Shown here piece after piece: positions 17,391 through 41,192 of a stretch of DNA of 64,000 bases. The translations under genes and the position numbers were made by a program. Within the stretch, counting starts at the first letter, position 1; the number at the start of each line of letters is the position of its first letter. The stretch spans positions 62,001 to 126,000 of the forward strand of contig JAFKAC010000099.1 in NCBI GenBank assembly GCA_025766275.1, written 5' to 3'. A model generated the notes under the pieces. That model was not told the DNA's origin, did no database searches, and was given only the letters and a program-made list of their open reading frames with translations. The stretch comes from Lactarius indigo (lineage: Eukaryota; Basidiomycota; Agaricomycetes; Russulales; Russulaceae).

Positions 17391-20085
17391 GTAAAGGTGG
17401 GGAGAGCCAGGAATGAGCCCTAGTACAAAAGGATTCGCACCTCCAACGATCTGCACGTGACTGGCATTCCTCTCTACGCTGTCGGGCCCGGTGATGGGGA
17501 AGTGAATGTAATGGGGCTGTCAATTCGCCCTGAACCCTTCAGGCACAAGGACCTGCGTGGGGTTGTCGTTGTGCGTGATGGGGGTGTGAAGTGTGACACC
17601 AGGCAGTCACACACGTCCTCGAGACATGGGGGTTCCGTCGGTGTGAACAAGCCATGGGGTGATTCGGGGATTAGTAGGGTGGCTGTGCGTTCGAAGGAGG
17701 GGGTGTCTGACCGGGTAGTAATCTTCGTCGTCAGTGAGAGCTTCGTCGTGAGGGAGCGCTGCCTGCACTGCTGCAACTCGCTCAACCTCTTCTGCGCTAA
17801 GTGCAGCTGTTTGTTGGCCCACTCCTTCGCCACTCTCCACCAATCCTCCACTGCTTCTAACTCCTGTTGGGTCTTCGAGGGGGCGGTTGGCTGGGAGAAT
17901 TCCCCGCGTGCCGATGAGGTCGTCACCTGGGGGGATAACAGCAATGGGTTCTCGATTGCCGTTGTCGTCTCTGAAGATATGAGCGACGGCATGCTGCTGC
18001 TTGTCGCTGGGCTGGTGAGTCGGGTCGGGGAACCTCTGTAGGACATTAGCCCACTCTTGAGCGGTGATATGCCCCGGTCGCATGTTTGCAGGTGTGTACG
18101 GAGTGAGCTGGACCGGTTGAACCACGGTTTCTTCATCGTCTTCAATGAGGTTGGTGGCGTCTTGTGCGACTTGGTCGAGGAGGATCGCCGTGGTGACATG
18201 TCTGAGGGGAGAAGTGGGCATAGAAGTACGAGTGGATCGGAGGTAGGAAGGATACTCTCCATGATCATCTGTGGGTTGGCTTTTAAGGGATCTCACGGCT
18301 GTTCGGCCCGCTTGATATGCCTCGACCGCGTCTGGTGCAAATACGTCATCCTTATCGACCCATTGGTTCTCTGAGTCTGGGTAGCCCTTCCATTTGATGA
18401 GGTATTGAAGCTTCTTGCGGCGGCCATAATGCCGTGAGTCTAGGACGGCCTCGACTTCATATTCTTCCTCCCCTTCCACGAGATCTGGTGGTGGTCGCGG
18501 GAAGTTTTCACCATGAATGGTCATACTTTTGTACAGCGTGAGAAGATCTATGTGAAACACGGGATGGATGCTCCACTGCATGGGAAGCTCGAGGCAATAA
18601 TTATAGGGGGACATCACCTGGATCACCCTGAACGGTCCATGGCATCGCACCGCTAATTTCGCCATGGGCTGATTGGTTTGGAGATGCTTCCCTTCTAACC
18701 ATACTTGGTTGCCTACTTGATACCGGGGTGTGTTCCGGTGTTTCACCCATCCTTCTTGTGCCTTTTTGATAAGACCTTGGGCCAGCTGTTGTGCTTCCTT
18801 TAATTGTGTCAACCTGGTTATCACGTTTGGAATAGGGGATGGCTTATCTGTCCAATCAGCTGTTGGATTGTAGCCCATAAGCAGCATGAATGGTGATTGC
18901 TTCGTATGCTCATGGGGCCAGTTGTTGTGAGCGAATTCTGCTATGGGAAGGTATGCCGCCCAGTTATCTTGCCGCTCGTTAGCCCAGAACCATAGATACT
19001 GCTCCAACCACTGATTGGTCCATTCCAATTGTCCGTCTGTACGTGGGTGATACGCCGTTGACACGTTCTGTTTAATACCCAAGATCCGGCACACCTCCCT
19101 GGTGAACTTGGACATAAATCGGGGGTCGTGGTCACTAATGATTTTGTGTGGTAACCCAAATCGTTTAAACACGTGATTGACGTACAGGATAGCTGTTTCC
19201 TCAGCTGTAATTTCTTCGTTACACGGGATAAATATCGATGCCTTGCTACAGTCATGATCCATGATCGTGAGGATGCTGTCATACGATTGGGACATTGGTA
19301 ACTTGGTGATGAAATCCAGCGCAATGGTGTGAAAGGGAGGAGCATCTGTGATCACGGTGATGGGGTACAGTGGTGCGCAGGTTGGTCTTGTGTTGACCTT
19401 ATTCCACTGACAGTCAGCACACCCAGTCACATACTCATATACATCTCGACAGAGACGTGGCCACCAATGGTGTCGTTCTACTATTCGCTGGGTCCTACTA
19501 ATACCGGGATGTCTGTGAGCAGGGAGGTCATGATGGTCGTGTATTATCGCCCAATGTGCAGCCATGGGCCCGGTGACTACCAGCTTCCCATCCTTGTACC
19601 ACTCCCTGTTGATCTTCTTCAGTTGATGGGCATTGACCCACGCCTTGATAATGGTCAGGTCTTGGACCCACCTCGGTTGTTGCAGCATTGGATGTATTTC
19701 CAGTGTGCATGCGACATTAGCTGCTCGTACAAATACTTCGGGGGGTAGGACGATCACACCTTGATTATCCTCCTCTCCCTGGTCGTAATCGGGTCGTCGA
19801 GATAGAGCATCCGCCCTACCATTGTTCTTCCTTTTGATGTGATGGATCTCGAAGTCGTATTCCATTAGTTCCAGTACTTCTCGAGCGACCCTTCGACTGA
19901 TCTTTTGCGGGGTCTTCCAGTATTGGAGGTTAAGATGGTCTGAAAATATTTTGATCTTGTGTGGGGATCCTGTGAGTAAGGGCCTCCAGTGCCGGAGGGC
20001 TTTGACAATGGCAAGAAGCTCCAGGTCGTAAATGTCGTAATTTCGTTCGGCTTCATTCAGCGTCGCCGAGTAGTATCCTATTGGG
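17391..20085 (-). pseudogene. pol: D1 pol, C-terminal two-thirds (RNase H-integrase-chromodomain-C-terminal domain)
   Basis: The frame continues from 30013 after the E1 insertion (the break falls between KHP and IGYYSATL). Visible: the RNase H remainder with GRADALSRRPDY, integrase zinc motif (HHDLPAHRHPG, CADCQ), D-D-E core with the final Glu still present (QLEWTNQW) and a chromodomain (YLIKWKGYPDSENQW, about 18390). The conserved C-terminal domain (DYYPVRHPLL) follows. TGA stops at 17609-17607 and about 17532 replace Arg codons. The sequence ends at 17391 against the C1 LTR within GSPHLY; the continuing codons (GKPLYA) are at 48257 onward on the other strand. Confidence 0.9.
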
Positions 20086-20780
20086 TGTGATGAACTCACT
20101 GTCACTCGACAGCGAGGGATAAGGCTGAAGACGACGGCGGGCAAGATAGAGGCGGAGAGAGCGGCGAAGGGGGCGAAGAGGAGGCGTCTTGGCTCAAAGA
20201 AGATAGTGGCGCACACAAGGTGGGGCACTCGAAGGAGCTGAGAGGCAAGAGAGGGAGATGTCACAAGTGGACAGTCTGAGGGACTGTCCGATAGATTGAG
20301 CTAGCTTATATACTACAGGGGGTGGTCTGTGCGTAACTTTAGGGCAGGCTTAGGGCCTGTCCACGAGTGCTGCGCAATACTGCGGATTGGAACATTCCAG
20401 AGACAAGTTATTAATACTGTCCAATCAGAATACAGGATAAGCATGGTACGACTGCACCGCAGTCGATGGCGCCATATTGCGCCATAGTGGCGTGATTCCG
20501 CAGCAGCTGCGGAACCCGTGATTAGAACACGTGTTCCTTGTGACTTGGTTGATTATCTTCGTTGATCGATAAACGATCAATTGTTGATTGATACACGTGC
20601 ATGTACACATGTGACTTGGAAAGACAGAGTAATCACGTGACACATCACGTGATCGTCGGAGAGCGAAATTCAAACTCCGATTTCGGATTTCCCCTTTAGG
20701 AAGCTGATGACATAAGCCCGGTCCAGTCCGGTCCGGTCCTAAGCGCCTTGAGTCACGACCAGGTTTATAGGTTCGTGACA
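20086..20780 (-). repeat. 3' LTR of E1 (695 bp)
   Basis: On the plus strand it starts TGTGATGAAC and ends GTTCGTGACA, near-perfect inverted termini. I noticed no difference from 29318-30012, which suggests a young insertion. Confidence 0.96.
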
Positions 20781-20795
20781 GTATCCCCTTTTTAA
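20781..20795 (-). promoter_or_regulatory. Polypurine tract of E1
   Basis: On the minus strand the run TTAAAAAGGGGATAC abuts the 3' LTR. It overlaps the pol stop codon TAA (20794-20792). Confidence 0.7.
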
Positions 20796-22099
20796 CGTCG
20801 TGCTATTCCACTAGCACTAGTTGACTTTGGTTTAGGGGCACCGGGGTTGGCCTTGTGAAATTGACTAACAAGGTCTTGCGCATGGGTCATTTGGGAGGAG
20901 GGGAGCCAGGAGTTTTCAGAGTCGGGGTACCCCTTCCACTTGATCAAGTAGAGTATGCCCTTCTTGTTAGGCGATACCTTGGATTGCAGGACCTTTTCCA
21001 CTTCGTAGTGTTCGTCTTCCCCTTGGATGATTTCAGGGGGTGGTCTGGTGAAGTTGGGTCCATGTGTAGTGTTTTCTTTATATGGGGAGATCAAGGAGTT
21101 GTGGAAGACTGGGTGAATGCGCCATGTTTTTGGAAGTTGGAGTTTGCAATTGACTCCCCAGGTGGAAAGGACCTTAAAGGGGCCGTGGCATCGTGGGGCG
21201 AGTTTAGCTTTGGGGTGGGTAGTATGGATGTTGGTTCCTTCCAGCCAGACTAAATCGCCTGTCTTGAATTCGTGAGAGGGGGTAGGTGTTTTTGACCCTC
21301 TCATGACTTCCGCTGCTACCTTAAGGGCTGCAGTAACTTCGGAGCGGATTTGATTTAGTGCATTTAATCTTTCCTCGGCTGCAGGTATTTTGGTGGTGAA
21401 ATGGGTAGGGGGAATGAACTCTGGTTTGTATCCATACCAAACCTCGAAGGGTGATTTGTGGGTTGCGCTGTGTTGTCGGGCATTGTGTGCAAATTCCATG
21501 AATGGGATTAGATCCACCCAGTTATCTTGTTGGAAGTTGCAGAAGACGCGAAGGTATTGTTCAAGTTCTTGGTTGACACGTTCAGTTTCTCCATCGGTTT
21601 GTGGGTGGAAAGCTGTAGATAGTGTGGATTTAACTCCAAGTTTGTTCCAAATTTCTTGCATGACCTTTGATGCAAATTGGGGGCCTCTGTCGGAGATGAC
21701 TTGTCGAGGTAGACCAGTACGTCTCCAGACATTTTCAAGGTAGAGTTGAGCTGTTTCGTCTGCAGTGATGGTTTTGTTGCAAGGGGAAATGACTATTGCT
21801 TTGCTGAGTCGGTCGACCACTACAAATAGTGAATCATAGTTGTGGGATAGGGGAAGGTCGGTGATGAAGTCCATTGTGATGGTTCCCCATATTTCTTCAG
21901 GTATTGCATTTGGTTGTAGGGGTACTTGGGTACGTGGTTTGATTTTAGTGGTTTGGCATGTGGCGCAACCATCAACATAGGTCTTAACGAATGTTGATAT
22001 TCCTGGCCACCAGAAGTCCCGGGATATCAACTCATAGGTCTTCCATCGCCCTGGATGTCCTGTGGCAATGTGGTCATGGTATGTTTTAACAATGTCTCT
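20792..22099 (-). CDS. pol: E1 integrase with chromodomain
   Basis: Integrase inserts the DNA copy in the nucleus; the chromodomain is expected to guide it to modified histones. The zinc motif begins just after the TGA at 22102-22100 (HDHIATGHPG, then CATCQ). The catalytic core shows TMDFITDLP, VISDRGPQF and the Glu in GETERVNQ. The GPFKV/KLAPR module and a chromodomain (YEVEKVLQS to YLIKWKGYPDSENSW, about 20900-21000) follow. A short basic tail ends in TAA at 20794-20792. In frame it continues the protease-RT segment; only the TGA separates them, at a codon that reads as a decayed CGA. Confidence 0.92.
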   Translation of the reverse strand, partial: RDIVKTYHDHIATGHPGRWKTYELISRDFWWPGISTFVKTYVDGCATCQTTKIKPRTQVPLQPNAIPEEIWGTITMDFITDLPLSHNYDSLFVVVDRLSKAIVISPCNKTITADETAQLYLENVWRRTGLPRQVISDRGPQFASKVMQEIWNKLGVKSTLSTAFHPQTDGETERVNQELEQYLRVFCNFQQDNWVDLIPFMEFAHNARQHSATHKSPFEVWYGYKPEFIPPTHFTTKIPAAEERLNALNQIRSEVTAALKVAAEVMRGSKTPTPSHEFKTGDLVWLEGTNIHTTHPKAKLAPRCHGPFKVLSTWGVNCKLQLPKTWRIHPVFHNSLISPYKENTTHGPNFTRPPPEIIQGEDEHYEVEKVLQSKVSPNKKGILYLIKWKGYPDSENSWLPSSQMTHAQDLVSQFHKANPGAPKPKSTSASGIARR

Positions 22100-24556
22100 T
22101 CATAGGTTATCGTCTTTTGGAACGTAGACTTGTCCTTTGAACAAGATAATGCCGTCTTCTAAGTTCCACTCTTCTAGTCCTCTAGCTAGGGATTGAGGGC
22201 CGTTTTTTAGAAGGGATTCTAGGGCCATGCTGACTTCCTTGTCATAGGTCTGGGTGTTTTTGATACGTTGCTGGAGGGTGGTATCTCCCTGGATGGTTAC
22301 TGCAGTTCTTTGTACTGCATTGATGGAAAAATATTTGGTGTCCAGGAGTACTCGCTTTTCATCTTCATCCACTATCCCCTTTTTATGATCTGGACGCCGA
22401 GACAGTGCATCAGATTTGTTCTGCGTGCCAGGTTTGTGGATGATGATGAACTGGAAGCGAGAGAGGAACAAGGCCCAACGGGCCTGTCGGCGGGAAAGTT
22501 TCTGCTTTGTGGTAAAATAGACAAGGTTGCCATGGTCAGACCAGATTTCAGTAACGTCATCCCGCCCTTCCAGGTAGTGGCGGAAAGCATGCAAGGCATG
22601 GATAATGGCGAGAAGTTCCTTGTCGCAGATTCCATAGTGACGCTCAGCAGGAAGGAGGGATTTGGAAAGGAAGGCGACGGGGTGCCAGCGTTGCAAGGCA
22701 TCCGGTTGCTCAAGGATGGCACCGGTAGCGAAATCACTCGCGTCGGTGATGAGGCGGAAAGGTTTGGAGTGGTCGGGTAGGGCAAGGACAGGAGCCTCAG
22801 TGAAGCACTGGATTAGGGTGCGGAAAGCGCTTTCCGCCGCGGTATCCCAAGAAAAGGGGACATCCTTCTTGGTCAGGTCAAACAAGGGGCGAGCGATAGT
22901 GGAGTAGTTTTTAATGAAGCGTCGATAGAAGTTGCAAAAGCCTAGGAAGGCTTGGACTTGTTTGACAGTACGTGGGGGGGGCCATTGGGTAATGCCCGCA
23001 ACTTTTGCAGGGTCCATAGAAACTTGGCCATTGGAAATGACGATTCCAAGGTATTCTATGGAAGTTTGTGCGAAGGTACATTTTTCAGGTTTTAGGTAGA
23101 GGTCGTGGCGTTCCAGCCGTTGAAGCACGTCGTGTGTCAACGCTGTAAGGGAGGAGATATCTTCTGTGAAGATTAAGATGTCATCGAGGTAGACCACTAC
23201 ATGTCCACCATCGATCAAGGACTCGAAGATTTGGTTCATGAACGTTTGGAAGGTGGCAGGGGCATTACAGAGGCCAAAAGTCATTACTGTAGGTTCGAAA
23301 AGTCCTAAGGATGTTTTGAAGGCTGCTTTGTATTCATCGCCTTCACGAATACGGATATTGTTGTATCCCCAGCGAACATCCAGTTTGGTGAAGTAACGTG
23401 CACCATGGAGTTTGTCGATAAGTTCAGGGATAAGGGGAAGGGGTGCTGCGTTCTTAATGGTTATATCATTGAGGGCACGGTAGTCTTGCACAGGTCGGAG
23501 TTTGCCATCTTTTTTGTCGACGAAAAAGAAGGGGGAAGCCATGGGTGACTTAGATGGTCGAATGTAACCTTTTTTTAGGTGTTCAGAAATATATTCTTTG
23601 AGGGCATCAGATTCTTTCGGTGTAAGTCGATAAATGCCACAATTCTTCATGGTGGCTCCTGGTTTGAGATCAATTGCGTGATCCCAAGGTTGGTGTTGGG
23701 GAAGTCGGTGGGATGCGATTTCGCTGAATACTTTGGTGTAACGTTGGAAATGACTTGGAATATGGTCGGTGGAAGGCTTGGGTGCAGTACGTGCTGCTAT
23801 CTTGGTGCTTGTGGTAACTTTTGCTCGAATTGCAAGGTGGTCGTACTTGCTAAAACTGTGGATCCACAGCCAGGGTTCGTAGGCATCTTGGGTAAAGGCA
23901 GGTTCCAGAGGCTCGATTGCTTCATTCATGGGGAGACAGGTTTCTTGGTCGAGTTCAAGGATGTTAATAGTCGTATGTCGCGTTTGCGGTGTCTTTGACG
24001 AGATGACAACTGCTAAGGAGGACAGGGTACAGGTTCTTGGGCACCATGTGAAGGCTATTTTTGGTTGATGCCAATCGATTTCAGGGTTATGTGCTCGGAG
24101 CCAATCTGTTCCTAAGATTATATCGTGCTCCCCAAGAGTAGTTGCATAGAGTTCCACAGTTTCGTCGTGGTAATTGTTATCCGAGGTCCTGATCTGTAGT
24201 CGCTGGATCGTAGTATACCTAACAGATCCCGTCTTGTTGGGAGACCCATCCACGTTTCTAACTGGTAAGGGTTTAATTAATGTCCGCATTGTTAGGTTGT
24301 TTGCACGCGCAAACCCATCATCCACGATGATGCCCTCCGCGCCACTGTCCAACAGGGCACGAGCACTGATTTCTTTGCCAGACTTCTTTCCTACTAGTGT
24401 AACTCTGAGAACAATTGAAGGAGCTCTCCTATTCCGAATTGTTTCTACAGGTACATGCTCGGCTCCGAGCGTCTCTAGTAGGGAAAGGCCGTGTACAACG
24501 CTACTGGCACGAATACTTCCAATCGACAGTGCTACGATGGAAGAGCCTAAAAATCC
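22100..24556 (-). CDS. pol: E1 protease-reverse transcriptase-RNase H
   Basis: The frame opens at 24556, ten bases before the end of gag at 24547 and in the -1 frame relative to it. Order: retropepsin (ALLDSGAEGIIV, about 24355), RT (KLDVRWGYNN, FGLCNAPATFQ, YLDDILIF about 23190), RNase H (LITDASDFATGAIL, about 22740) and the connection to integrase (DALSRRPDHKKG). All RT catalytic Asp residues I can see are intact. A single TGA at 22102-22100 ends the frame; relatives suggest an Arg codon there, so one C-to-T change separates it from integrase. Expression from gag may use the T-run at the gag stop. Confidence 0.92.
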   Translation of the reverse strand, partial: GFLGSSIVALSIGSIRASSVVHGLSLLETLGAEHVPVETIRNRRAPSIVLRVTLVGKKSGKEISARALLDSGAEGIIVDDGFARANNLTMRTLIKPLPVRNVDGSPNKTGSVRYTTIQRLQIRTSDNNYHDETVELYATTLGEHDIILGTDWLRAHNPEIDWHQPKIAFTWCPRTCTLSSLAVVISSKTPQTRHTTINILELDQETCLPMNEAIEPLEPAFTQDAYEPWLWIHSFSKYDHLAIRAKVTTSTKIAARTAPKPSTDHIPSHFQRYTKVFSEIASHRLPQHQPWDHAIDLKPGATMKNCGIYRLTPKESDALKEYISEHLKKGYIRPSKSPMASPFFFVDKKDGKLRPVQDYRALNDITIKNAAPLPLIPELIDKLHGARYFTKLDVRWGYNNIRIREGDEYKAAFKTSLGLFEPTVMTFGLCNAPATFQTFMNQIFESLIDGGHVVVYLDDILIFTEDISSLTALTHDVLQRLERHDLYLKPEKCTFAQTSIEYLGIVISNGQVSMDPAKVAGITQWPPPRTVKQVQAFLGFCNFYRRFIKNYSTIARPLFDLTKKDVPFSWDTAAESAFRTLIQCFTEAPVLALPDHSKPFRLITDASDFATGAILEQPDALQRWHPVAFLSKSLLPAERHYGICDKELLAIIHALHAFRHYLEGRDDVTEIWSDHGNLVYFTTKQKLSRRQARWALFLSRFQFIIIHKPGTQNKSDALSRRPDHKKGIVDEDEKRVLLDTKYFSINAVQRTAVTIQGDTTLQQRIKNTQTYDKEVSMALESLLKNGPQSLARGLEEWNLEDGIILFKGQVYVPKDDNL
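24547..24556 (-). promoter_or_regulatory. Possible -1 frameshift at the E1 gag stop
   Basis: The sense strand reads GAT TTT TAG at the gag end. The run of five T allows the tRNA on TTT to slip back one base, giving TTA GGC and the pol frame. It is not a perfect X XXY YYZ heptamer. Inferred. Confidence 0.35.
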
Positions 24557-26097
24557 TCATTAATAGGCACCAAACGTGGACGTGCGTCCGGGTCAAAAGG
24601 AAGTATCTCTCGATATACCGCTCCTATGTTTGCTGGGTGGTCAGTAGGTGCTTCCTCCTGACTTGGTTCATCAACAAAGGCGCCGCGCGCCCTAGCGTTG
24701 TTGCTGGATTGGCTTCCTTTAGCCTTCATGGCTGCCGTCTTGGCGTGACATTCTTTAAGTACGTGGCCTGGTTTGCCACAGTACAGGCAGAGTTTATTCT
24801 TGAAGCGATACTCTCACTCTTCTTTGGTAAGCTTGGCTCTTGGTTTGGTGGTACGCGATGAGGAGGCATTGACATTTACGCTCTCATCCTCCGCTAGGAC
24901 TGCGCGTCCCGAAGTAGGCTTATGGGTTTTGTTAAACTGGTTAATGGCATTTCCTGCATAAATTCGATAGGCGCGATCGAATTCTCTTGCTTTCTCAACG
25001 AGGGTGTCGAAGGTGGTAGGGATGGGGGATATGCCGAGCAGCTTCATATTCAGGGCTGTTGGAATAGCTTGTCGGAAAGCATACATCTTGGTTTGTTCAT
25101 TTGCACCACTTCGTGTAGCATGGGTTGACCATTCCTGGAACCATTCATTGAAAGGTCGGGTTCCCATCTTCAGAGAATACATTTTGTTGGTGGATTCCAT
25201 GGCAGTATGACCAGGAACGAAGTGTGCATCAAAGTCAGTTTTGAACTGCGCCCAGGTGCCAAAGGATATTGCCGCTCCTCCGGTTGGGTTCAAGGCTTTC
25301 TTTTGTCTATCTTGAGCCCATTCCCCGGCTGAGGTCCCCACCTTGAAGTAGGTGAGAGCAGTAGATATCTTTTTATCGTCTGTATTAAAGATATCTTGGT
25401 TTAGGTGGAAGTAGTTGGCTAGGTTGTTCCAAAAAGCTTCAGCATGGTTGGGCTTGCCATCAAAGGGCTCAGGTGCTGCGCCTAAGATTTTTGCAGGTGC
25501 AGGGGCTGCCATTGCAGTGGGTACAGGGGGAACGGATAAGGGGGGTGCTGAGGAAGAGGCTTGAACAGTTAGGGGTGGTGACGGAAGTCGATGTGGTGGA
25601 ACTGTTGCAGGGAAGCGACTTGGGCCGGAGGTACTAGGGGAAGTCTGGGGCGTCGAGGGTCGGGAGGTTACTTGGGAGAGTAGACCAGAAAGTTTCTTTG
25701 TAGTAGTATCAAGGATTTGTGATACTTCTTCCGTATCACTTTTCGAATCGTCGGATTCACTAGGTGTATTGAAGTGGACCAGTTTGTTGTTTAGGTAGAT
25801 CCACTGCCCGGTCACAAAGTTCCAACGGACGTTCTTTCCTTTGAAGATGGCGTGTAGGGCATTGTAGTTTACGTTTTCAACCTTTTCGATACCTGGAAAG
25901 GCTTCTTTGAGGTCCTGGAAAACGATTTGATGTTGGGTAGCAACTATTGTCCACGGGTGTTTTCCTGTAGGGCTGGATATGTCTTCTTCTTTCCACTTGG
26001 CGTAGTAAAGGTTGTTGGTAAGGGAAAAATAGGGGTCGAAGAAGTATACTGGAACGTGGGCTTTTTCTTCTGGTGTAAGAGGTCGTTGTGTATTCAT
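24547..26097 (-). CDS. gag: E1 gag with one TGA before the zinc knuckle
   Basis: The start ATG at 26097 is the first in-frame ATG after about 3.4 kb of transcript. The N-terminal 110 residues (to VRWNFVTGQWIYL) form a compact aromatic domain. A Ser/Pro linker, then the capsid-like domain (AAPEPFDGKPNHAEAFWNNL to IYAGNAIN), follow. TGA at 24816-24814 interrupts TKEE-EYRFKNKL; it is readable as a decayed CGA. Behind it lies the CCHC knuckle CLYCGKPGHVLKEC (about 24750-24792) and an acidic tail ending NEDF. The upstream ORF3 stop (TAG) is separated from this ATG by only one codon, in the same frame. Confidence 0.9.
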
Positions 26098-26100
26098 ACA

Positions 26101-26802
26101 CTAATTCTGCAGGCGGGTGACAGTCCAACTGTCTATGTTCCAAGGGTAATAAACTTTATAGGCAGGGAGTAAGATGGCACGGTCTGGGTGGTTGGTTCTT
26201 TGTTGTCGGCGGATCCAGTGGTATTCTTCCCAAATACCAAAATGGGTTAGGATGGTTTTACTTCTCCACAAGAAGTCTTGGAAGTATAAGGGGCTGGTGG
26301 TGATTTCAGTCGCCCTAGTGAGGGGTTGGGCGAAGAACAAGGTTTCGTTGGTGTGTCGGTTTTGATAGAGGAGGGTACAGTGGCGCTTGAAAACGTCGAG
26401 TTCTCTGGGGGTTCGTGTGGGTAAACTTTTGGTTACGAGGATTGCTTCTGGAAGGTGACAGTAAATTTCTCTTGGTTGGGTTTCGAGGTACTGTGCTTCA
26501 TCACTACTAGTGGTGTGTTGTCTAGGGATGTCTTGGATACTAGGGAAGACGGGTTCGTGTGGGCTGGATTGGTTAATACTAGGGAGTTGACTAGGGGTTC
26601 ATCGATGGGTACGAGCTGCTTGTCTTGGAATTACTGGGGTAGTGTTTGTAGAGGTAAGAGGACGGGTGTCTACTTGGGGACGGTGATGACGTCTTCTTGT
26701 AGTGCGTTGAGAGGAAGCCAGGGTGATTGCCCAGTTTGTGACGGGTTCCAGGTTGATGTTTGACAGGTATAATTTTCTCGGGTTTTCGCTTAAAGTTGTG
26801 AC
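26101..26802 (-). CDS. E1 ORF3, unknown protein, no methionine codon
   Basis: An open stretch of about 234 codons runs from after TAA (near 26805) to TAG at 26103-26101, with one internal TGA (near 26603) in the context CGA TGA, readable as CGA CGA before decay. It has no ATG in frame. The first half is Thr/Pro/Arg-rich; the second half is aromatic (YFQDFLWRSKTILTHFGIWEEYHWIRRQ). I do not recognise a family. It is in the same frame as gag and ends one codon before the Gag ATG, so it could be an N-terminal Gag extension cut by a stop, or a separate product with coupled reinitiation. Confidence 0.5.
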
Positions 26803-26808
26803 TTAACA
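26790..26808 (-). other. Imperfect hairpin in the ORF2-ORF3 gap of E1
   Basis: The plus strand reads CTTAAAGTTGTGACTTAAC: TTAAAGT and ACTTAA pair around TGTG with one bulge. It resembles the two TTAA-ended hairpins between ORF1 and ORF2. Confidence 0.35.
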
Positions 26809-26840
26809 CTTTTCAGCAAAAGTAGGTCCCGACAAAATTT

Positions 26841-27881
26841 CTAAAAATCGTCTACGCTTCCTCGGTACGGTAAGTAATTAAGTCCAGGGGCCCACAATAC
26901 GACGTTAGGAGGGGTAGGGGGGGTAGCTGGTCTAAATCCACAAGTACAGACTTCGTTTGAACACCAACAGGGGTTAGTGTTGACTGGGTTGTTCCAAGTG
27001 TCCACTACTGTTGCGCCTTCTTCATCAGTGTCTCCGTTGTGGAGGGAGATATCACTGTCTCGTGGAGAGGGTACTTCGTCTGGAGGTGGGGGGGAATATT
27101 CAGGACTGGGGGTTGAAGGAACTAGGGGTTCAAAGCCTGGTCCGGCTTCTGCGATCCGAGCAAGTAGGGCGATCGACCGTGGTCGTTCAGAAGCTCTTCC
27201 TCCTCTGGCTTGTATGAGTTCTACTAGTTCTGGGTCGTTGGGTTCTCTGGGGGGCTCGAGGAATGTTCGTGGGTTAACTGGTGGTTGGTCTGGGTTGGGG
27301 AGTGTCGTTTCCCAAACTCCGGTGCTGAAGAGATAGGAAAATTCTTTTCCGTCAACAATAACAAGTCGAGGTGGGGAGTCGCCGACTCTAACCACCCGAA
27401 GTTCTTGAAAGTTGATTTGTAGTTGTTGATAGTTAAGGAGAACCCGGTTGATGTACCGTTTGGGACGCCCTGCTTCTATGCTCCTAATAAGTCGTTCTCT
27501 TCGAGGGGGAATGTAAATGAACCAGAGGAAGTCGCTCTTAGTCCAAACTAGGTATTGATCTGCTGGCCTGTTGTTGGTGGTGACGGCGCCTGAAAGGTGC
27601 CAGTAAAGGAGTTGCTCATGGGCGTCGTCTACTAAGATAGGGAGGCAGTCGATAAGGGTTTCGTAGCCTTCTTCGCTTAGTATTCTTCCAAAGTCGAAGC
27701 TAAAGTGGAACTTGTTAAGGGCAGTGGGGGGGTCGGTCCAGGAGTCAGCGTTGTTTACAGCTGTTAGGTCAACAAGGGCAGTGGAGGGGTAGTATCGTTC
27801 AAGTTGTCGTCGCCTGTGGGTTTCGAAGTTAGCTTGGGCTAGTGCTAGCCTCTGAGCTTCGGTAAGTTGTTCTGGGGGCAC
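26841..27881 (-). CDS. E1 ORF2, unknown protein, no methionine codon
   Basis: The frame of 346 codons follows a TAA directly and begins at GTG (27881) by default; it contains no ATG codon. Residues 1-180 look globular with many Trp/Tyr/Phe (LLYWHLSGAV, FLWFIYIPPRRERL). Near residue 195 is GKEFSYLFSTGVWETT, which resembles the E1 Gag N-terminal GKNVRWNFVTGQWIYL. Residues 205-300 are Pro/acidic and disordered. Near residues 305-314 is C-x-C-x4-C-x-C, a possible metal site. It shares the frame of ORF1, with stops between them. I do not recognise a family. It could be a Gag-like accessory protein. Confidence 0.6.
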   Translation of the reverse strand: MPPEQLTEAQRLALAQANFETHRRRQLERYYPSTALVDLTAVNNADSWTDPPTALNKFHFSFDFGRILSEEGYETLIDCLPILVDDAHEQLLYWHLSGAVTTNNRPADQYLVWTKSDFLWFIYIPPRRERLIRSIEAGRPKRYINRVLLNYQQLQINFQELRVVRVGDSPPRLVIVDGKEFSYLFSTGVWETTLPNPDQPPVNPRTFLEPPREPNDPELVELIQARGGRASERPRSIALLARIAEAGPGFEPLVPSTPSPEYSPPPPDEVPSPRDSDISLHNGDTDEEGATVVDTWNNPVNTNPCWCSNEVCTCGFRPATPPTPPNVVLWAPGLNYLPYRGSVDDF

Positions 27882-27962
27882 TTAAAACCACTCGGTTTAA
27901 GACCTTTGGATAGTAACGGTTTACTTACTATTTGCGTTGAGACTTAAAACACTCGTTTTAAG
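27879..27962 (-). other. Two TTAA hairpins in the ORF1-ORF2 gap of E1
   Basis: On the plus strand CTTAAAACCACTCGGTTTAAG (27881-27901) and CTTAAAACACTCGTTTTAAG (27943-27962) are two inverted repeats with the same ACTC loop; the second is perfect. They lie in the 138-bp non-coding gap between the two frames. Role unknown; RNA structures that affect scanning or termination are possible. Confidence 0.5.
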
Positions 27963-28019
27963 TGGTTCAAGGCAAGTTTATTGTTTCTTCAGAAAAGGTA
28001 CGTCCCCCCTTTTTGACTT

Positions 28020-29276
28020 CTAGAGGGGTTGGGAGTCGGGGAAGGTAGTAATGAAAGAAAAAGGGTCTGCAGGGATACGAGGGGTAAGGCAATAAGCGAG
28101 TAAGTGAGGGGAAGCGCGAATTAGGTCCTCAAAAAAGTAGGCTTGGTGATAAGCGTAAATATGTCCGTCGATAGCAAAACAAAGATGTCCGTAAGTGGTC
28201 ACTATCCTCCCGTCCAAGAAGTCTTGAATCTCTAGGGTAACTAGTGAATCAATATACCCAGCCCTATGGATGTTAGTAAGGGGGGCAAAAACACGCCGCA
28301 GGCCCTCTCTAAAGTCGTAGCGAATTGTTCCAAAAGGGGTGTCTGGAGAAGGAAGGTCGTAGACAGCCCTGGAACAGATGTAGAGAGGGGGGAAGTTGGG
28401 GTGTTGAGTGGGATCAACGATGCGGGGGAAGAGGGTGTAAACGTGAGGAGGGAGGAGACGGAAAGGGGTGACAGAAGGGAAGACTGGGGGATAAGTGACA
28501 AGGGTAGTTGCAAGGGGAACTTTAGTGATCAGTTCCCGAAGTGTAGTAGAGGCGGGCCGCCAAGATTCTCCCTGAGGAGTGATGACAGCGATGTAAAGAT
28601 GGGGATGTTCTCCTTGGTGAAGGAGACAAGGGGGGGCTTGATAGGCGGCGGCAGCGGCAGGGGGGAAATTCTCCTGGTTGGGGTGAGGGGCAGGAGGGGC
28701 TTGTTCAGCTACCCTCTCGTAGTTAATAGGGGAGTCAGGAGTGGGGGGGCGTGAGGCAACTGGAGGAGGCGAGGGAGAAGGAGGGCGTGGAGGAGTATCA
28801 ACAGGTAGCGAAGGAGAGGCATGAGGGGTGGTAGCTTTGTGGGAAGGGAGAGGGGGACGAGGTGTGGGAAGACGAATGGGAGGCACAGACTCGGCGCGTG
28901 GTTCAGGGGAAGGAGTGCGAGAGAGCTCAACTATGTTTCCGTTGAGGTCTACTATCTCGAGAACTTCTTCGTAGAATTGTGCAGTGCTGGGTGAGACAGA
29001 ACGAGGGGAGGGGCGAGGGGTGGCTTCGGGGTCAGGGTAAACTAGTTCTGGGGTGACTTCCCGACTTTCTATGATGGGGGAAGGGATGACAGGGGGGGAG
29101 AAGCTTGGAGTGGGAAGAGGAATGTAAGGGGGATCTGGAAGACGAGAGGTGGATGCGACAGGAGAGCGAGTAAAAATGGAATCGAGGGGGCTACCCTGGA
29201 AGTAACTTTCTTCCTGGTAACTGCAGGAATCTCCGTCCCAATGTCCAAACTGCGAAAAGTCGTAGTCTGAATCCAC
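28020..29276 (-). CDS. E1 ORF1, unknown proline-rich protein, no methionine codon
   Basis: The open frame begins after TGA (near 29292); the first near-cognate start is GTG at 29276 (CCAGTGG). The 418 codons include no ATG. Residues 1-210 are Pro/Ser-rich and likely disordered (DPPYIPLPTPSFSPP); residues 215-418 look globular with aromatic and hydrophobic segments (HPHLYIAVITPQGESW, GHLCFAIDGHIYAYHQAYFF). Stop TAG at 28022-28020. It lies 40 bp from the 5' LTR, where other gypsy elements have leader or gag. I do not recognise a family. The other frames of this stretch are far less open, which supports real coding. Confidence 0.6.
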   Translation of the reverse strand: MDSDYDFSQFGHWDGDSCSYQEESYFQGSPLDSIFTRSPVASTSRLPDPPYIPLPTPSFSPPVIPSPIIESREVTPELVYPDPEATPRPSPRSVSPSTAQFYEEVLEIVDLNGNIVELSRTPSPEPRAESVPPIRLPTPRPPLPSHKATTPHASPSLPVDTPPRPPSPSPPPVASRPPTPDSPINYERVAEQAPPAPHPNQENFPPAAAAAYQAPPCLLHQGEHPHLYIAVITPQGESWRPASTTLRELITKVPLATTLVTYPPVFPSVTPFRLLPPHVYTLFPRIVDPTQHPNFPPLYICSRAVYDLPSPDTPFGTIRYDFREGLRRVFAPLTNIHRAGYIDSLVTLEIQDFLDGRIVTTYGHLCFAIDGHIYAYHQAYFFEDLIRASPHLLAYCLTPRIPADPFSFITTFPDSQPL

Positions 29277-29305
29277 TGGGGAAGCCCGAGGTCAGTCTAA
29301 TAAAG

Positions 29306-29315
29306 AGACTGTCCA
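29306..29315 (-). promoter_or_regulatory. Self-priming primer binding site of E1
   Basis: On the sense strand TGGACAGTCT begins two bases after the 5' LTR. It is complementary over 10 nt to AGACTGTCCA in the LTR (29500-29509). Because it begins with TGG, a tRNA primer cannot be excluded. The self-complementarity and its spacing from the TATA box favour self-priming as in families A and C. Confidence 0.6.
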
Positions 29316-29317
29316 AG

Positions 29318-30012
29318 TGTGATGAACTCACTGTCACTCGACAGCGAGGGATAAGGCTGAAGACGACGGCGGGCAAGATAGAGGCGGAGAGAGCGGCGAA
29401 GGGGGCGAAGAGGAGGCGTCTTGGCTCAAAGAAGATAGTGGCGCACACAAGGTGGGGCACTCGAAGGAGCTGAGAGGCAAGAGAGGGAGATGTCACAAGT
29501 GGACAGTCTGAGGGACTGTCCGATAGATTGAGCTAGCTTATATACTACAGGGGGTGGTCTGTGCGTAACTTTAGGGCAGGCTTAGGGCCTGTCCACGAGT
29601 GCTGCGCAATACTGCGGATTGGAACATTCCAGAGACAAGTTATTAATACTGTCCAATCAGAATACAGGATAAGCATGGTACGACTGCACCGCAGTCGATG
29701 GCGCCATATTGCGCCATAGTGGCGTGATTCCGCAGCAGCTGCGGAACCCGTGATTAGAACACGTGTTCCTTGTGACTTGGTTGATTATCTTCGTTGATCG
29801 ATAAACGATCAATTGTTGATTGATACACGTGCATGTACACATGTGACTTGGAAAGACAGAGTAATCACGTGACACATCACGTGATCGTCGGAGAGCGAAA
29901 TTCAAACTCCGATTTCGGATTTCCCCTTTAGGAAGCTGATGACATAAGCCCGGTCCAGTCCGGTCCGGTCCTAAGCGCCTTGAGTCACGACCAGGTTTAT
30001 AGGTTCGTGACA
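29318..30012 (-). repeat. 5' LTR of E1 (695 bp)
   Basis: Same length and ends as 20086-20780. It has TATA box, palindromic start site and an R-U5 without any ATG on the sense strand. Confidence 0.96.
29500..29544 (-). promoter_or_regulatory. Core promoter and self-primer of E1
   Basis: On the minus strand TATATAAG (29544-29537) lies 35 bp before AGACTGTCCA (29509-29500). GGACAGTC and GACTGTCC form an 8-bp inverted repeat across the predicted start. The layout matches families A and C although the sequence differs. Confidence 0.6.
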
Positions 30013-31330
30013 TTGGGTGCTTGCGACTGTCATTTTTCTTTTGTAGCAGTACTGCACCTACCGCGAATCCTGACACATCGACTTCTAATTCGAATTGGTC
30101 TTGTAAGTTGGGGTGTGCCAACACTGGTTCTTCGGTGACGAGGCGTTTGAGAGTTTTGAATGCGCGATCTTCATCTTCTCCCCAGTTCCACTCAGCATCT
30201 TTCCTTGTTAATCGGTTGAGTGGTCGCGCATGGGTTGCGAAACCTTGGATGAAAAGACAGTAAAAGTTACAGAAACCCAAGAATGATCGTACATCCCTGA
30301 CTTTGGTTGGCGTTGGCCAATCCCTGATGCCCTGGACTTTTACCAGATCCATGCGTGTCACCCCCCTTTCAAGGATTACCCCCAGGTAATCCATCCGAGG
30401 TTGGTGAAACAGGCACTTTTCAAGTTTGAAGTAGAGGTCATGGTCCTGAGCGACGCGAAGAACGTCTGTGACAGCTGCGATATGGTCAGTGGACGTGGAG
30501 CCTTCGCGTGTAGCAATGCCGATGTCATCCATGTAGACCCAGATGACGGTGCCGCAGAGTTTGTGCTTAGCGATGGTGTCATGGTAAATGTGGTTCATCA
30601 TGGTTTGGAAAGTTGCTGGCAAGTTGGTGAGGCCGAAGAACATGACTGTCGGTTCGAAGAGCCCGAACTTGGTTTTGAAGGCCACCTTTTCTTGGTCGCC
30701 CTCCCGTATGCGAATGTTGTTGTACCCCCAGCGAATATTGAGTTTTGTATAGATGTGAGTGTTGCTGAGGTCGTAGATGAGGTCCTGAATTAATGGAAGC
30801 GGGTATTGGTTGCATATGGTATGCAAGTTAATAACGCGGTAATCCTGTACAGGGCGTAGCGTTCCATCCTTCTTTTTAATGAAGAAGAATGAAGATGTGT
30901 ACGGGGACATCGAAGGGCGAAGGTATCCTTGCTGGAGCTTCTCATCCAGGAACTCCTTAAGCTTGCCTTCCTCTTCTTGCGTAAGTGGGTATATTTTGCA
31001 GTCTATTGCAGAGGGTGTGCCGGGTTTAAAGTCAATTGCGTGATCCCATGGTCTGGCGGGGGGGAATCGCTGTGATGCGTCTTCGCTGAAGAGCTTCTGG
31101 AAGGCTCAATATTCGGCCGGTAGTTCTACAGGTTGTTCGTCCTTTTTTGCCCAGATGGCCAGCTCCATAGACGTAGTTGCCCGCAAGTACGCGTCTTCCT
31201 CATCCATTTCAAGGACAATTGCCTCCTTTTATTCATTAGTGAGAGCTGACACAATAACAGTATTATGGTCCAGACTCTCCTGTGTACTGATCACGACCGG
31301 CATGACCTCCTCGTGTATCACTGCATCCCT
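30013..31330 (-). pseudogene. pol: D1 pol, protease-RT linker and RT (N-terminal part)
   Basis: This is the upstream half of the D1 frame split by E1. RT motifs: IKKKDGTLRPVQDYR, YMDDIGIAT (about 30530) and RNase H start FELEVDVSGF. The first catalytic Asp is changed (KLNIRWGY instead of KLDIRWGY). A TGA at 31108-31106 (from an Arg codon) and a TAA at 31231-31229 block it upstream. It ends at 31330 against the A1 LTR. The D gag and protease core are not in the window, probably on the far side of A1. Confidence 0.88.
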
Positions 31331-38606: not shown

Positions 38607-39115
38607 TGTTATGTTTCGACCCATACCCTTACTGTACCGGTTGCAACTACGGCGGTAAGGTAGATTAGTTGCGGACTTACGATAGGCGATTACGAGTACG
38701 ATAGGAGATTGCGCGCTGATTGCTGACTGAGGACTACGCCACTAATACTAGTAGTAGTAGTATTAGGATTCGAGCTACTTACGCGATACGTTGGACGCTA
38801 CATTACCGTGACTCATAGCAGCGCTTGAAAGCCTGCTCGACTTGTATTTAATCTGTCTTGTGAAGACCGAGATACGCCATCTTGGTCTTCTTGAATCGTC
38901 ACTTGTTTCCTCTCTCTCTCTCTCTCTCTCTTTCTATCTCTTTTCTACCGCCTCTCTCGAGTAGTGCACCTTCGAGTGTTCACCATTGCCTACGCTTGGA
39001 CCTTCGTGTCTTCAAGACATTTATCGCGCCTGGACCTCCGCGTCTTCAGAGCATCCGCTAAGTTGTTACCGCCTCGATAGAGCTCAAGTCGAGCTAACGT
39101 CGTGACGACGTAACA
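38607..39115 (+). repeat. 5' LTR of C2 (509 bp)
   Basis: It begins TGTTATG (one transition from TGTTACG) and ends CGTAACA. It carries the core promoter at 38845-38889 and a (CT)n tract in R-U5. Confidence 0.95.
38845..38889 (+). promoter_or_regulatory. Core promoter and self-primer of C2
   Basis: TATTTAA (38845-38851) lies 34 bp before ATCTTGGTCTT (38879-38889). The latter is the exact complement of the primer site at 39118-39128. The left arm of the start-site palindrome here has one change (AAGACCGAGAT). Confidence 0.65.
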
Positions 39116-39117
39116 TT

Positions 39118-39128
39118 AAGACCAAGAT
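39118..39128 (+). promoter_or_regulatory. Self-priming primer binding site of C2
   Basis: AAGACCAAGAT, two bases after the LTR, complementary over 11 nt to 38879-38889. Confidence 0.75.
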
Positions 39129-39134
39129 ACCACC

Positions 39135-41192
39135 GTGGCCATAACAACAAGAGACCAGTGGACGAACTTCCGTCCATATTCACTCCCAAGAAGAGGAGAA
39201 CGTAACGTCCCCACGCGCTTTCTACAAGCCGCTAGTTGGAGGGAAAGACAAGAAGAAACCGGATATTTTGTGGAGTTCAACGGACCTAGTAGGTTCCGAC
39301 CAGTTGAGTTCAACTTCGACCACTTGTGTTGGACAGAGGTTACGTGGAATCCCGTAGATTCCCAGTGGGACGTCATACGACCAGCAGGACCTAGATACCA
39401 GTGCGATATCGACGCCCAAGAACTCAACAGCCGAGCAGATTGGGGCCCCATTGACGGGCAAGTGCGAGAACACTCTACTGGAGAAGTGATATCAGAAGAA
39501 GAGGAACAAAGCCAAGACGAGAGTGAAGGGCGAGAGCCAAATCAAACAGAAACTAGCGGAGGAGCAATACAAGATCTCCTCATCGAACGAGCTGAGTCCG
39601 CACACATTAACGAACCAGAGCCAATTCACATCCGATCACCAGCCATTATGGCAACAATAACAAGAGAAATGGAAGAAGTCGCGATTGAAGAAGCGCGCGC
39701 AATACGAGAAGAAGCACGAGAAATCCTCATGCCCATCAACCCTGAAACCGGCGTACGAATGACTGCAGACGACGCAGCCATCTTCCGAGCAATAGGGTCG
39801 GATCGAGGAGACCCCCCATCCGGACGACAACCCGCACTAGACCTCCCACCGGGAGTGGGAGGACCGGGCGGAGACCCGCCACCGCCACCAGGTGGGGGTA
39901 TCCCGTTTGATCTACGGAGAACCGAACCACCAAGAATGCCACCCATGGGACCGCCAGGTGGTGGAGGAGGCGATGGCGGAGGAGGAGGTGGTGGAGGAGG
40001 TGGAAATGCCGGAGGAGGAGGACATCATAACGAAAAACTAACCGGCGAGCCACCTTCCATTTTTGACGGAGACAGACTCAAAGTAGACCAATTTCTAACA
40101 CAGTGGCATGTCTATTGGGGCATGAATTTGGACGCCCCTATCATGCGCAACGACTACAGAAGATGCCTTCTGTTTCTTTCCTACATCAAAGGCGGAGCAG
40201 TCAGCGAATGGGTTCTATCCTTCCTGAACTGGCTCAACAGACAGATACAACGGGGAATAAGTCCCTATACTCGCGACCTATGGGACGCCGTAGCCGATGG
40301 ATTCAGCCAGAGGTTCGAAAACACGCTAGAAAGGGAGCAAGCCCAAGCTATACTACGGAAAGGTTACAAGATGACGGGGGAAGACATTGACAAGTACGTC
40401 AATGACTTTGAACAACTCGCACGGAAAGCTCACTATCGCCTCAACGAACCCCAAACCATCGACCTCTTTACGTCGGGTCTACCCAAGGAACTGTTCAAGA
40501 ACGCGTTCCAGTTCGACGACCCCGTCACGTTCGACGATTGGAAAAGGGCCGTCCTCAAGCGGCAGAAGAATTACATCCATCTCAAAGTGCGACTCAATGA
40601 ATACAAAAACACGACAACGCAACCAAAGAAGCAAGGCGGCAATGCGGGATGGACACTCCCACAGAACCTACCACAAACTAACCCATGGGCGATGGACACC
40701 TCGGCTGACCGTGCAAAAGTGAGGCTCGCAGGGTCCGAAGACATAAATTTCAACAAACTGCCACACCACGACTGGCCTACACCACCATTCCCGCTGAGAG
40801 GAGGACCGGGAGCTAGAGGACGAGGGAGAGGAGGAGCTCGAAGGGACTTAAGGAACGTCCTTTGCTATAACTGTCACGCTCCTGGCCACCTCTCACGAAA
40901 TTGCCCATATCCGCGCGCGCAGCAACAATGGCAGGCTGCCCCATCCAGTAGCCGCATGACCGAAACTACGGAATACCCTCAAGGACCCGTTTCACAGTAC
41001 GTGCCGTCACTGCCCGGATATATGTCGCCGGCACCAAGTGTAACGCCCGCACCCCAAATCAACGCGGCAAGCACGAAAACAGCGGGAGAACAAGCCAAAG
41101 AGTGGCTCACACAGGTGGCCAACAGTACGGATGAAGTAAAAGATCTTATACTCCAAGATCTATGGGGAAAGGAGGGTTTTCGGGACGCCTGA
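39135..41192 (+). CDS. gag: C2 gag, intact frame, apparent GTG start
   Basis: The 685-codon frame is uninterrupted. Residues about 1-95 form a domain strongly conserved with A2 (YFVEFNGPSRFRPVEFNF, EVTWNPVDSQWDV); residues 96-170 are acidic and variable. The first ATG anywhere in the predicted transcript is at 39648 (MATITREMEE, residue 172). A Gly/Pro stretch (residues 240-300), a capsid-like domain and a CCHC knuckle (CYNCHAPGHLSRNC, about residue 576) follow. The GTG at 39135 (ACCGTGG) has the corresponding GTG in A2 and C1, so I list it as the upstream start. Gag may exist as two forms, from GUG and from AUG. Confidence 0.85.
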   Translation: MAITTRDQWTNFRPYSLPRRGERNVPTRFLQAASWRERQEETGYFVEFNGPSRFRPVEFNFDHLCWTEVTWNPVDSQWDVIRPAGPRYQCDIDAQELNSRADWGPIDGQVREHSTGEVISEEEEQSQDESEGREPNQTETSGGAIQDLLIERAESAHINEPEPIHIRSPAIMATITREMEEVAIEEARAIREEAREILMPINPETGVRMTADDAAIFRAIGSDRGDPPSGRQPALDLPPGVGGPGGDPPPPPGGGIPFDLRRTEPPRMPPMGPPGGGGGDGGGGGGGGGGNAGGGGHHNEKLTGEPPSIFDGDRLKVDQFLTQWHVYWGMNLDAPIMRNDYRRCLLFLSYIKGGAVSEWVLSFLNWLNRQIQRGISPYTRDLWDAVADGFSQRFENTLEREQAQAILRKGYKMTGEDIDKYVNDFEQLARKAHYRLNEPQTIDLFTSGLPKELFKNAFQFDDPVTFDDWKRAVLKRQKNYIHLKVRLNEYKNTTTQPKKQGGNAGWTLPQNLPQTNPWAMDTSADRAKVRLAGSEDINFNKLPHHDWPTPPFPLRGGPGARGRGRGGARRDLRNVLCYNCHAPGHLSRNCPYPRAQQQWQAAPSSSRMTETTEYPQGPVSQYVPSLPGYMSPAPSVTPAPQINAASTKTAGEQAKEWLTQVANSTDEVKDLILQDLWGKEGFRDA

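Follow-up and report, generated by a model that had tools for sequence, protein, structure and literature searches.

Start codons can be created by splicing. In Epstein-Barr virus the AUG of EBNA-LP arises at a splice (W0/C2 to W1'), and downstream proteins use other junctions. Rice tungro bacilliform virus (RTBV) and the badnaviruses (Caulimoviridae) have upstream ORFs that lack internal AUG codons, so that ribosomes reach a later ORF, together with a non-AUG start and a P4 protein made from spliced RNA (PMC5902531). The barley retrotransposon BARE1 has a short intron of 104 nt that decides which protein is made. Cer1 CERV, a Gypsy/Ty3-related element of C. elegans, produces an extra protein from a spliced mRNA (PMC10309623). 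Fungal chromoviruses (e.g. Tcn1-like) encode Gag and a Pol with a chromodomain, mostly in one or two ORFs, and some carry an additional ORF of unknown function according to a figure legend (PMC2864245).

The element analysed here, E1, lies on the minus strand of the window, by which we mean the whole 64-kb stretch of DNA analysed. E1 is a Ty3/Gypsy element that seems to bring together the ideas of EBNA-LP, RTBV and BARE1, and two of its AUGs would be made by splicing. EBNA-LP belongs to a herpesvirus and has one start codon governed by alternative acceptors, whereas E1 would keep or remove short introns; EBNA-LP is not known to follow a kilobase-long AUG-free leader such as that of E1. In little-decayed copies of the E1 family the upstream ORFs are AUG-free or nearly so, as in RTBV. 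RTBV, however, is a pararetrovirus whose start codons are not described as splice-made, and its desert of about 900 nt compares with 3.3-3.4 kb in E1, nearly four times longer. BARE1 has a single ORF, and its splicing introduces a stop codon downstream of Gag rather than a start codon. Cer1 also differs from E1: its mRNA has five exons, the first three in the gag frame, and the protein from this spliced mRNA is required for export of the unspliced RNA (PMC10309623). Fungal chromoviruses share the Gag and chromodomain Pol of E1, but E1 has three further ORFs. The earlier note on this DNA knew of no gypsy element with an AUG desert and long Met-free frames upstream of Gag, and our search of the open-licence literature found no LTR retrotransposon that also combines these with splice-made start codons.

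E1 is a Ty3/Gypsy chromovirus

The main parts of E1 are as follows.

29318..30012, minus strand: 5' LTR, TG...CA, 695 bp, last base fixed via the target-site duplication CCCAA
29332..29509, minus strand: exon 1 (R-U5), containing no ATG, from the predicted transcript start
29306..29315, minus strand: primer-binding site (PBS) TGGACAGTCT, self-priming type by sequence, within putative intron 1
24814..26097, minus strand: Gag (Retrotrans_gag 1.8e-7), in ATG-free copies the first AUG of the unspliced RNA
20792..24556, minus strand: Pol (protease, RT, RNase H, integrase, chromodomain), in two open frames in this copy
20086..20780, minus strand: 3' LTR

Domains, LTRs and target-site duplication identify E1 as a Ty3/Gypsy LTR retrotransposon with a chromodomain (chromovirus). 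The LTRs end in TG..CA and are bordered by the short duplication CCCAA, and the two differ at 0 of 696 compared positions. Pol carries retroelement-type domains (RVT_1 3.7e-35, RT_RNaseH 1.5e-34), and 3' of RNase H it has an integrase (Integrase_H2C2 2.2e-19, rve 2.4e-12) with a C-terminal chromodomain (SH3_Tf2-1 7e-15, Chromo 2.4e-13). In self-priming elements of the Tf1/sushi type the PBS is complementary to the 5' end of the element's own RNA. In E1 the PBS TGGACAGTCT and the predicted RNA 5' end AGACTGTCCA are complementary, and this pairing fits self-priming from a transcript that would start at 29509. The last base of exon 1, A at 29332, is the would-be A of the ORF1 AUG.

The leader of E1 is nearly devoid of ATG

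Between 29509 and the Gag ATG at 26097 the sense strand holds exactly the five ATGs counted in the earlier note, with first bases at 28822, 27619, 27025, 26602 and 26501; arithmetic from the ORF coordinates likewise places none of them in frame with ORF1, ORF2 or ORF3.

26501..28822, minus strand: span of the five leader ATGs; the matching triplets in ATG-free relatives are ACG (four) and GTG (one)

Equal base use would give about 53 ATGs, and the C-rich, G-poor composition of the strand lowers this to 33.9. Dinucleotide shuffles of the leader gave 18.4 on average, with a minimum of 8 in 300 shuffles. Among all 3.4-kb stretches of the window, on both strands, the leader has the fewest ATGs (5-7); the medians are 54 and 58, and the plus strand never falls below 20. 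Control regions showed near-expected or higher counts: 92 ATGs against 75 expected in gag-pol of E1, 38 against 33.9 on the antisense strand of the leader, and 8 against 10.1 in U3 upstream of the transcript start. Among the roughly 1680 residues of gag-pol are 20 Met, a rate that would give about 12 in 970 codons. Other ATG-free stretches of 0.9-1.1 kb occur in the window at 17467-16348 (minus strand, ending at a gag-like ATG), 38611-39648 (plus), 62029-61115 (minus) and 6045-6912 (plus); the two of these that were checked contain no A/GTRAGT...AG/TG pair (slashes mark exon borders).

Little-decayed relatives have few or no ATGs in the leader

The 90.3-Mb assembly (291 contigs) yielded at least 121 matches to ORF2 and at least 103 to ORF1, and full leaders could be joined for 18 of the 19 copies in which both ORF loci were fetched. 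Leaders were sorted by CpG content to avoid picking by result, with the cut (at least 149 CpG) set after the table had been seen. The 12 leaders above the cut, 3.3-3.4 kb long, contain 0, 0, 0, 0, 0, 0, 0, 0, 1, 1, 2 and 2 ATGs, with about 18 expected. Thus 8 of the 18 joined leaders are ATG-free and 12 have 0-2. The window copy (144 CpG) and C13 (138 CpG) have five each, and the four CpG-poorest leaders (47-99 CpG), which include the upstream-rearranged C224b, have 11-24. A further copy, L063, has zero, and group B, with an ORF2 about 55% identical, is represented among the zero-ATG leaders. Among the best-scoring 30 of at least 103 ORF1 matches (about 3.0 kb each; copies far from the window sequence fall outside this list), 11 have no ATG, 12 have 1-4 and 7 have 9-35.

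These counts lie below what chance would give. Dinucleotide shuffles of nine leaders chosen as zero-ATG gave 17.0-19.1 ATGs. Synonymous shuffles, in which codons were permuted among identical amino acids, gave 8.4-9.3 out-of-frame ATGs in five zero-ATG copies, and 0 of 1000 shuffles reached zero in each of the five. The relatives' counts and the shuffles back the suggestion of the earlier note that selection keeps AUG out of the leader, and none of the 12 little-decayed relatives has an ordinary ATG frequency. Eight non-zero group-A leaders together contain 67 ATGs, and at 44 of these the ATG-free copies have ACG, as expected from CpG deamination. The five ATGs of the window copy look like such later decay, and we read zero leader ATGs as the functional state, in which the AUG of Gag would come first.

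ORF1-3 are conserved as proteins

Three reading frames lie between the 5' LTR and gag.

28020..29275, minus strand: ORF1, 418 codons including the predicted spliced ATG (A29332 + TG29275-29274), homologues found
26841..27880, minus strand: ORF2, 346 codons including the predicted spliced ATG
26101..26751, minus strand: ORF3, read from a candidate CUG; 216 codons where intact, with the frame interrupted here by TGA at 26601

The lengths of 418 and 346 codons given earlier for ORF1 and ORF2 hold if translation starts at the spliced ATG (ORF1 has 423 codons stop to stop). The approximately 234 codons given for ORF3 do not hold in the window copy, where an in-frame TGA at 26601-26599 interrupts the frame; intact copies such as L004 have 233 codons stop to stop. 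Across nine copy pairs at 54-98% protein identity, dN/dS over ORF1-3 was 0.03-0.26, far from 1; where group A is compared with group B, dS exceeds 1 in ORF2 and ORF3 and the ratios there are rough. These values support the view that ORF1-3 behave as real proteins under purifying selection.

Homologues at about 30-60% identity were found in other fungi: 34 for ORF1 (among the 8000 best candidates scored), 21 for ORF2 and 8 for ORF3; the named protein relatives are all Lactarius (Russulales) records. Internal Met is rare in the homologues of ORF2 (4 in 6735 residues) and ORF3 (1 in 1630). The 34 ORF1 homologues from the 8000 candidates are less Met-free as listed, with 82 in 15771 residues. Of these Met residues, 41 come from a single fused model, P0032, and at least 11 ORF1 records have one at the predicted splice joint; the eight JGI/ENA ORF1 records have three, all in P0058. 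ORF2 has a predicted folded domain over residues 1-220 or so, followed by a Cys-rich tail. The end of ORF2 (26841-27881) bears the conserved motif CWCxxEVCTCGYRPxTPPTPP, which possibly binds metal.

Two putative introns would assemble the AUGs of ORF1 and ORF2

Two short introns are predicted at the 5' ends of ORF1 and ORF2.

29276..29331, minus strand: putative intron 1, 56 nt, donor GTGAGT in U5, acceptor CAG, containing the PBS
27881..27928, minus strand: putative intron 2, 48 nt, donor GTAAGT after A (27929), acceptor AAG followed by TG

Both are of fungal type and have the form A/GTRAGT...AG/TG, with the donor after an A and the acceptor before a TG, so that removal joins A and TG into an in-frame ATG. 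The aligned junctions read GACA/GTGAG...YAG/TG at ORF1 and A/GTAAGT...AAG/TG at ORF2. The spliced ORF1 joint would read ...GTGACATGGATTCA (M-D-S-D-Y-D), and its group-B counterpart ...GTGACATGACTGAC or ...ACATGTCTGAC; the TG is constant and the next codon varies among GAT, ACT, GCT and TCT. The spliced ORF2 joint would read ...ATGCC (M-P-P). In intron 1 a CTGAC branch-like site starts 20 nt from the intron end, and no clear branch site was seen in intron 2 of group A. AAG, the acceptor of intron 2, is a weak 3' splice site.

Conservation of these sites is high. All 14 leaders checked contain two and only two GTRAGT sites, with 0.53-0.59 expected by composition, each preceded by A and located at ORF1 or ORF2; the 14 were taken from 19, leaving aside five more decayed or less intact leaders. 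The exon end before donor 2 has five length variants (CGCAAATA, CGCAAATAA, CGCAATAA, CGCAAA and CGCAA), and its final base is always A. Among the best 30 of at least 103 ORF1 matches, donor 1 is kept in 29, and YAG/TG is found at the expected ORF1 position in 29 (27 CAG, 2 TAG, one of the latter in C101); L046, rearranged upstream, still has CAG/TG at ORF1. The two sites are the only GTRAGT in 27 of these best 30 loci, the exceptions being L045, which has a third, and L046 and L049, which lack that of ORF2. A/GTAAGT at ORF2 is kept in 26 of 28 aligned copies and lost in two. Intron lengths range over 55-56 nt for intron 1 and 47-53 nt for intron 2.

Gene models from other Lactarius species point the same way. 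The string ...SDMSDY... appears in 11 of the 34 ORF1 homologues found among the 8000 best candidates (10 from L. sanguifluus, one from L. hengduanensis), and TCG AGT GAC A/TG would encode SSDM; ...TMPP... appears at ORF2 in four Lactarius models. We read these predictions as the orthologous ORF1 and ORF2 junctions. The ORF1 joint is absent from 15 of 26 NCBI records. Six of seven JGI records for ORF1, and six of seven for ORF2, start with V (GTG, from AG/TG), which we read as AG/TG mistaken for a bacterial GTG start. An exact-pattern search found no intronless genomic copy, though RNA spliced at intron 1 would have lost the PBS and would not normally be copied. Taken as sequence patterns, these observations make it likely that the AUGs of ORF1 and ORF2 are made by splicing.

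Candidate starts of ORF3 and Gag

No splice-type start junction was found at ORF3. Its conserved core starts at a Leu that is CTG in 16 aligned copies; nine of nine copies examined have an A at position -3 and a G at +4, and in L027 only two codons precede this CTG. In C46 and C135 no other A-NN-CTG-G lies closer to the 5' end of the leader; four A' copies and two of three B copies have an earlier one. The conserved CTG is the best candidate for the ORF3 start. The Gag AUG lies 3 nt after the ORF3 stop in group A and overlaps it (AATGA) in group B, and has T at -3. To reach it, ribosomes would have to scan 3.4 kb.

GAGT-loop hairpins lie at the splice sites

29327..29348, minus strand: HP0, GAGT loop, 9-bp stem, over donor 1
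27942..27963, minus strand: HP1, GAGT loop, 9-bp stem, 13 nt before donor 2
27881..27901, minus strand: HP2, GAGT loop, ending at acceptor 2, one pair changed on both sides in 8 of 28 copies

A C-GAGT-G loop on an ungapped stem of at least 5 occurs 2-4 times in each of seven leaders scanned, and GAGT is the commonest tetraloop (3 and 4 occurrences; others at most 2) in two leaders in which all tetraloops were counted. HP2 is bulged in group A and is missed in A' by the ungapped-stem scan. A further hairpin before ORF3, HP3, was present in three of three group-B leaders scanned and in none of four group-A/A' leaders. The compensated pair of HP2 is the only one reported by RNAalifold, making covariation support thin; by eye, HP2 of A' also carries a T-A in place of an A-T. 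That GAGU-loop hairpins regulate splicing is a speculation.

A model of splice-selected translation and its alternatives

The arrangement suggests the following expression scheme. The E1 family would encode three conserved proteins between the 5' LTR and gag on a transcript kept AUG-free from its 5' end up to Gag. Removal of intron 1 would give the AUG of ORF1, and removal of intron 2 that of ORF2. With no AUG upstream, a newly made AUG would be the first met by a scanning ribosome, and splicing would thereby select the protein, each spliced RNA yielding one upstream protein. The unspliced RNA, the only form retaining both the PBS and the AUG-free leader, would give Gag-Pol and probably also ORF3, via leaky initiation at the well-placed CUG. 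Splicing in this scheme removes only introns of 48-56 nt, which differs from splicing out the leader. We put this reading, of splice-made AUGs for ORF1 and ORF2, an AUG-free leader, a CUG for ORF3 and Gag from unspliced RNA, at roughly 80%. Among the start routes raised by the earlier note, splicing would thus apply to ORF1 and ORF2 and non-AUG initiation to ORF3.

A larger proposal adds that a protein bound to the hairpins at donor 1 and acceptor 2 might inhibit splicing and shift output to genomic RNA. One programme of splice-controlled first-AUG choice would then join the 3.4-kb desert, the two AUG-assembling introns, the CUG of ORF3 and repeated GAGU hairpins over splice sites, through which a protein of the element would turn output away from accessory proteins and towards genomic RNA. 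Different families and fungal species would share this programme. We advance this whole only tentatively, the odds being somewhat against it.

The same AUG-free, multi-ORF leader would also permit leaky scanning along unspliced RNA with non-AUG starts, for which ORF1 and ORF2 offer a GTG and ORF3 a CTG. RTBV ribosomes scan 900 nt via AUG-free ORFs I and II and use an AUU start (PMC5902531). Such translation would leave unexplained the two conserved A-preceded GTRAGT donors, the restriction of YAG to C or T, and the Lactarius joints, and we consider it unlikely. Still less probable is a role of the intergenic hairpins as internal ribosome entry sites that start ORF2 and ORF3 without AUG. GAGT-loop hairpins are conserved at ORF boundaries and one pair is compensated, but HP0 lies over a splice donor before the PBS, HP3 is confined to the three group-B leaders among those scanned, and internal entry would make an AUG-free leader needless.

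The G-poor composition accounts for part of the ATG deficit, bringing the expectation from about 53 to 34. As the whole cause, with base composition or mutation bias leaving AUG out as a by-product and no selection, it is hardly credible: ATG is the most depleted trinucleotide in two zero-ATG copies (0 against 37 expected, the next lowest ratio being 0.73), the deficit ends at the transcript start and at Gag, and decayed copies regain ATG.

If splice-selected translation is correct, a mobile element runs several genes off one promoter with the AUG as a splicing product, and about 1000 codons are held Met-free to keep the switch clean; it would also explain why gene callers start ORF1 and ORF2 at GTG. 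The E1 leader offers an unusually sharp natural test of scanning across kilobases, and ORF1-3 add three conserved protein families.

Mosaic copies and the insertion of E1

Copy C255 (L025/L059) is a mosaic with ORF1-2 of group B and ORF3-gag of group A. The A' copies (L018-L021 with L035, L036, L041, L042) share about 95% of ORF1 with E1 and only 68-69% of ORF2. From such copies, modules may recombine at ORF boundaries. Contigs C17 and C279 give identical matches at identical coordinates and are probably duplicates in the assembly.

E1 (20081-30017) is nested, with the duplication CCCAA, within another Gypsy element, whose RT part occupies 30013-31105 and whose RNase H/integrase part occupies 17607-20084. 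The LTRs of E1 are identical, yet its ORF3 has the in-frame TGA and an overlapping ATG (26599-26602), both apparently due to a single C-to-T substitution. It seems that a defective copy has transposed recently.
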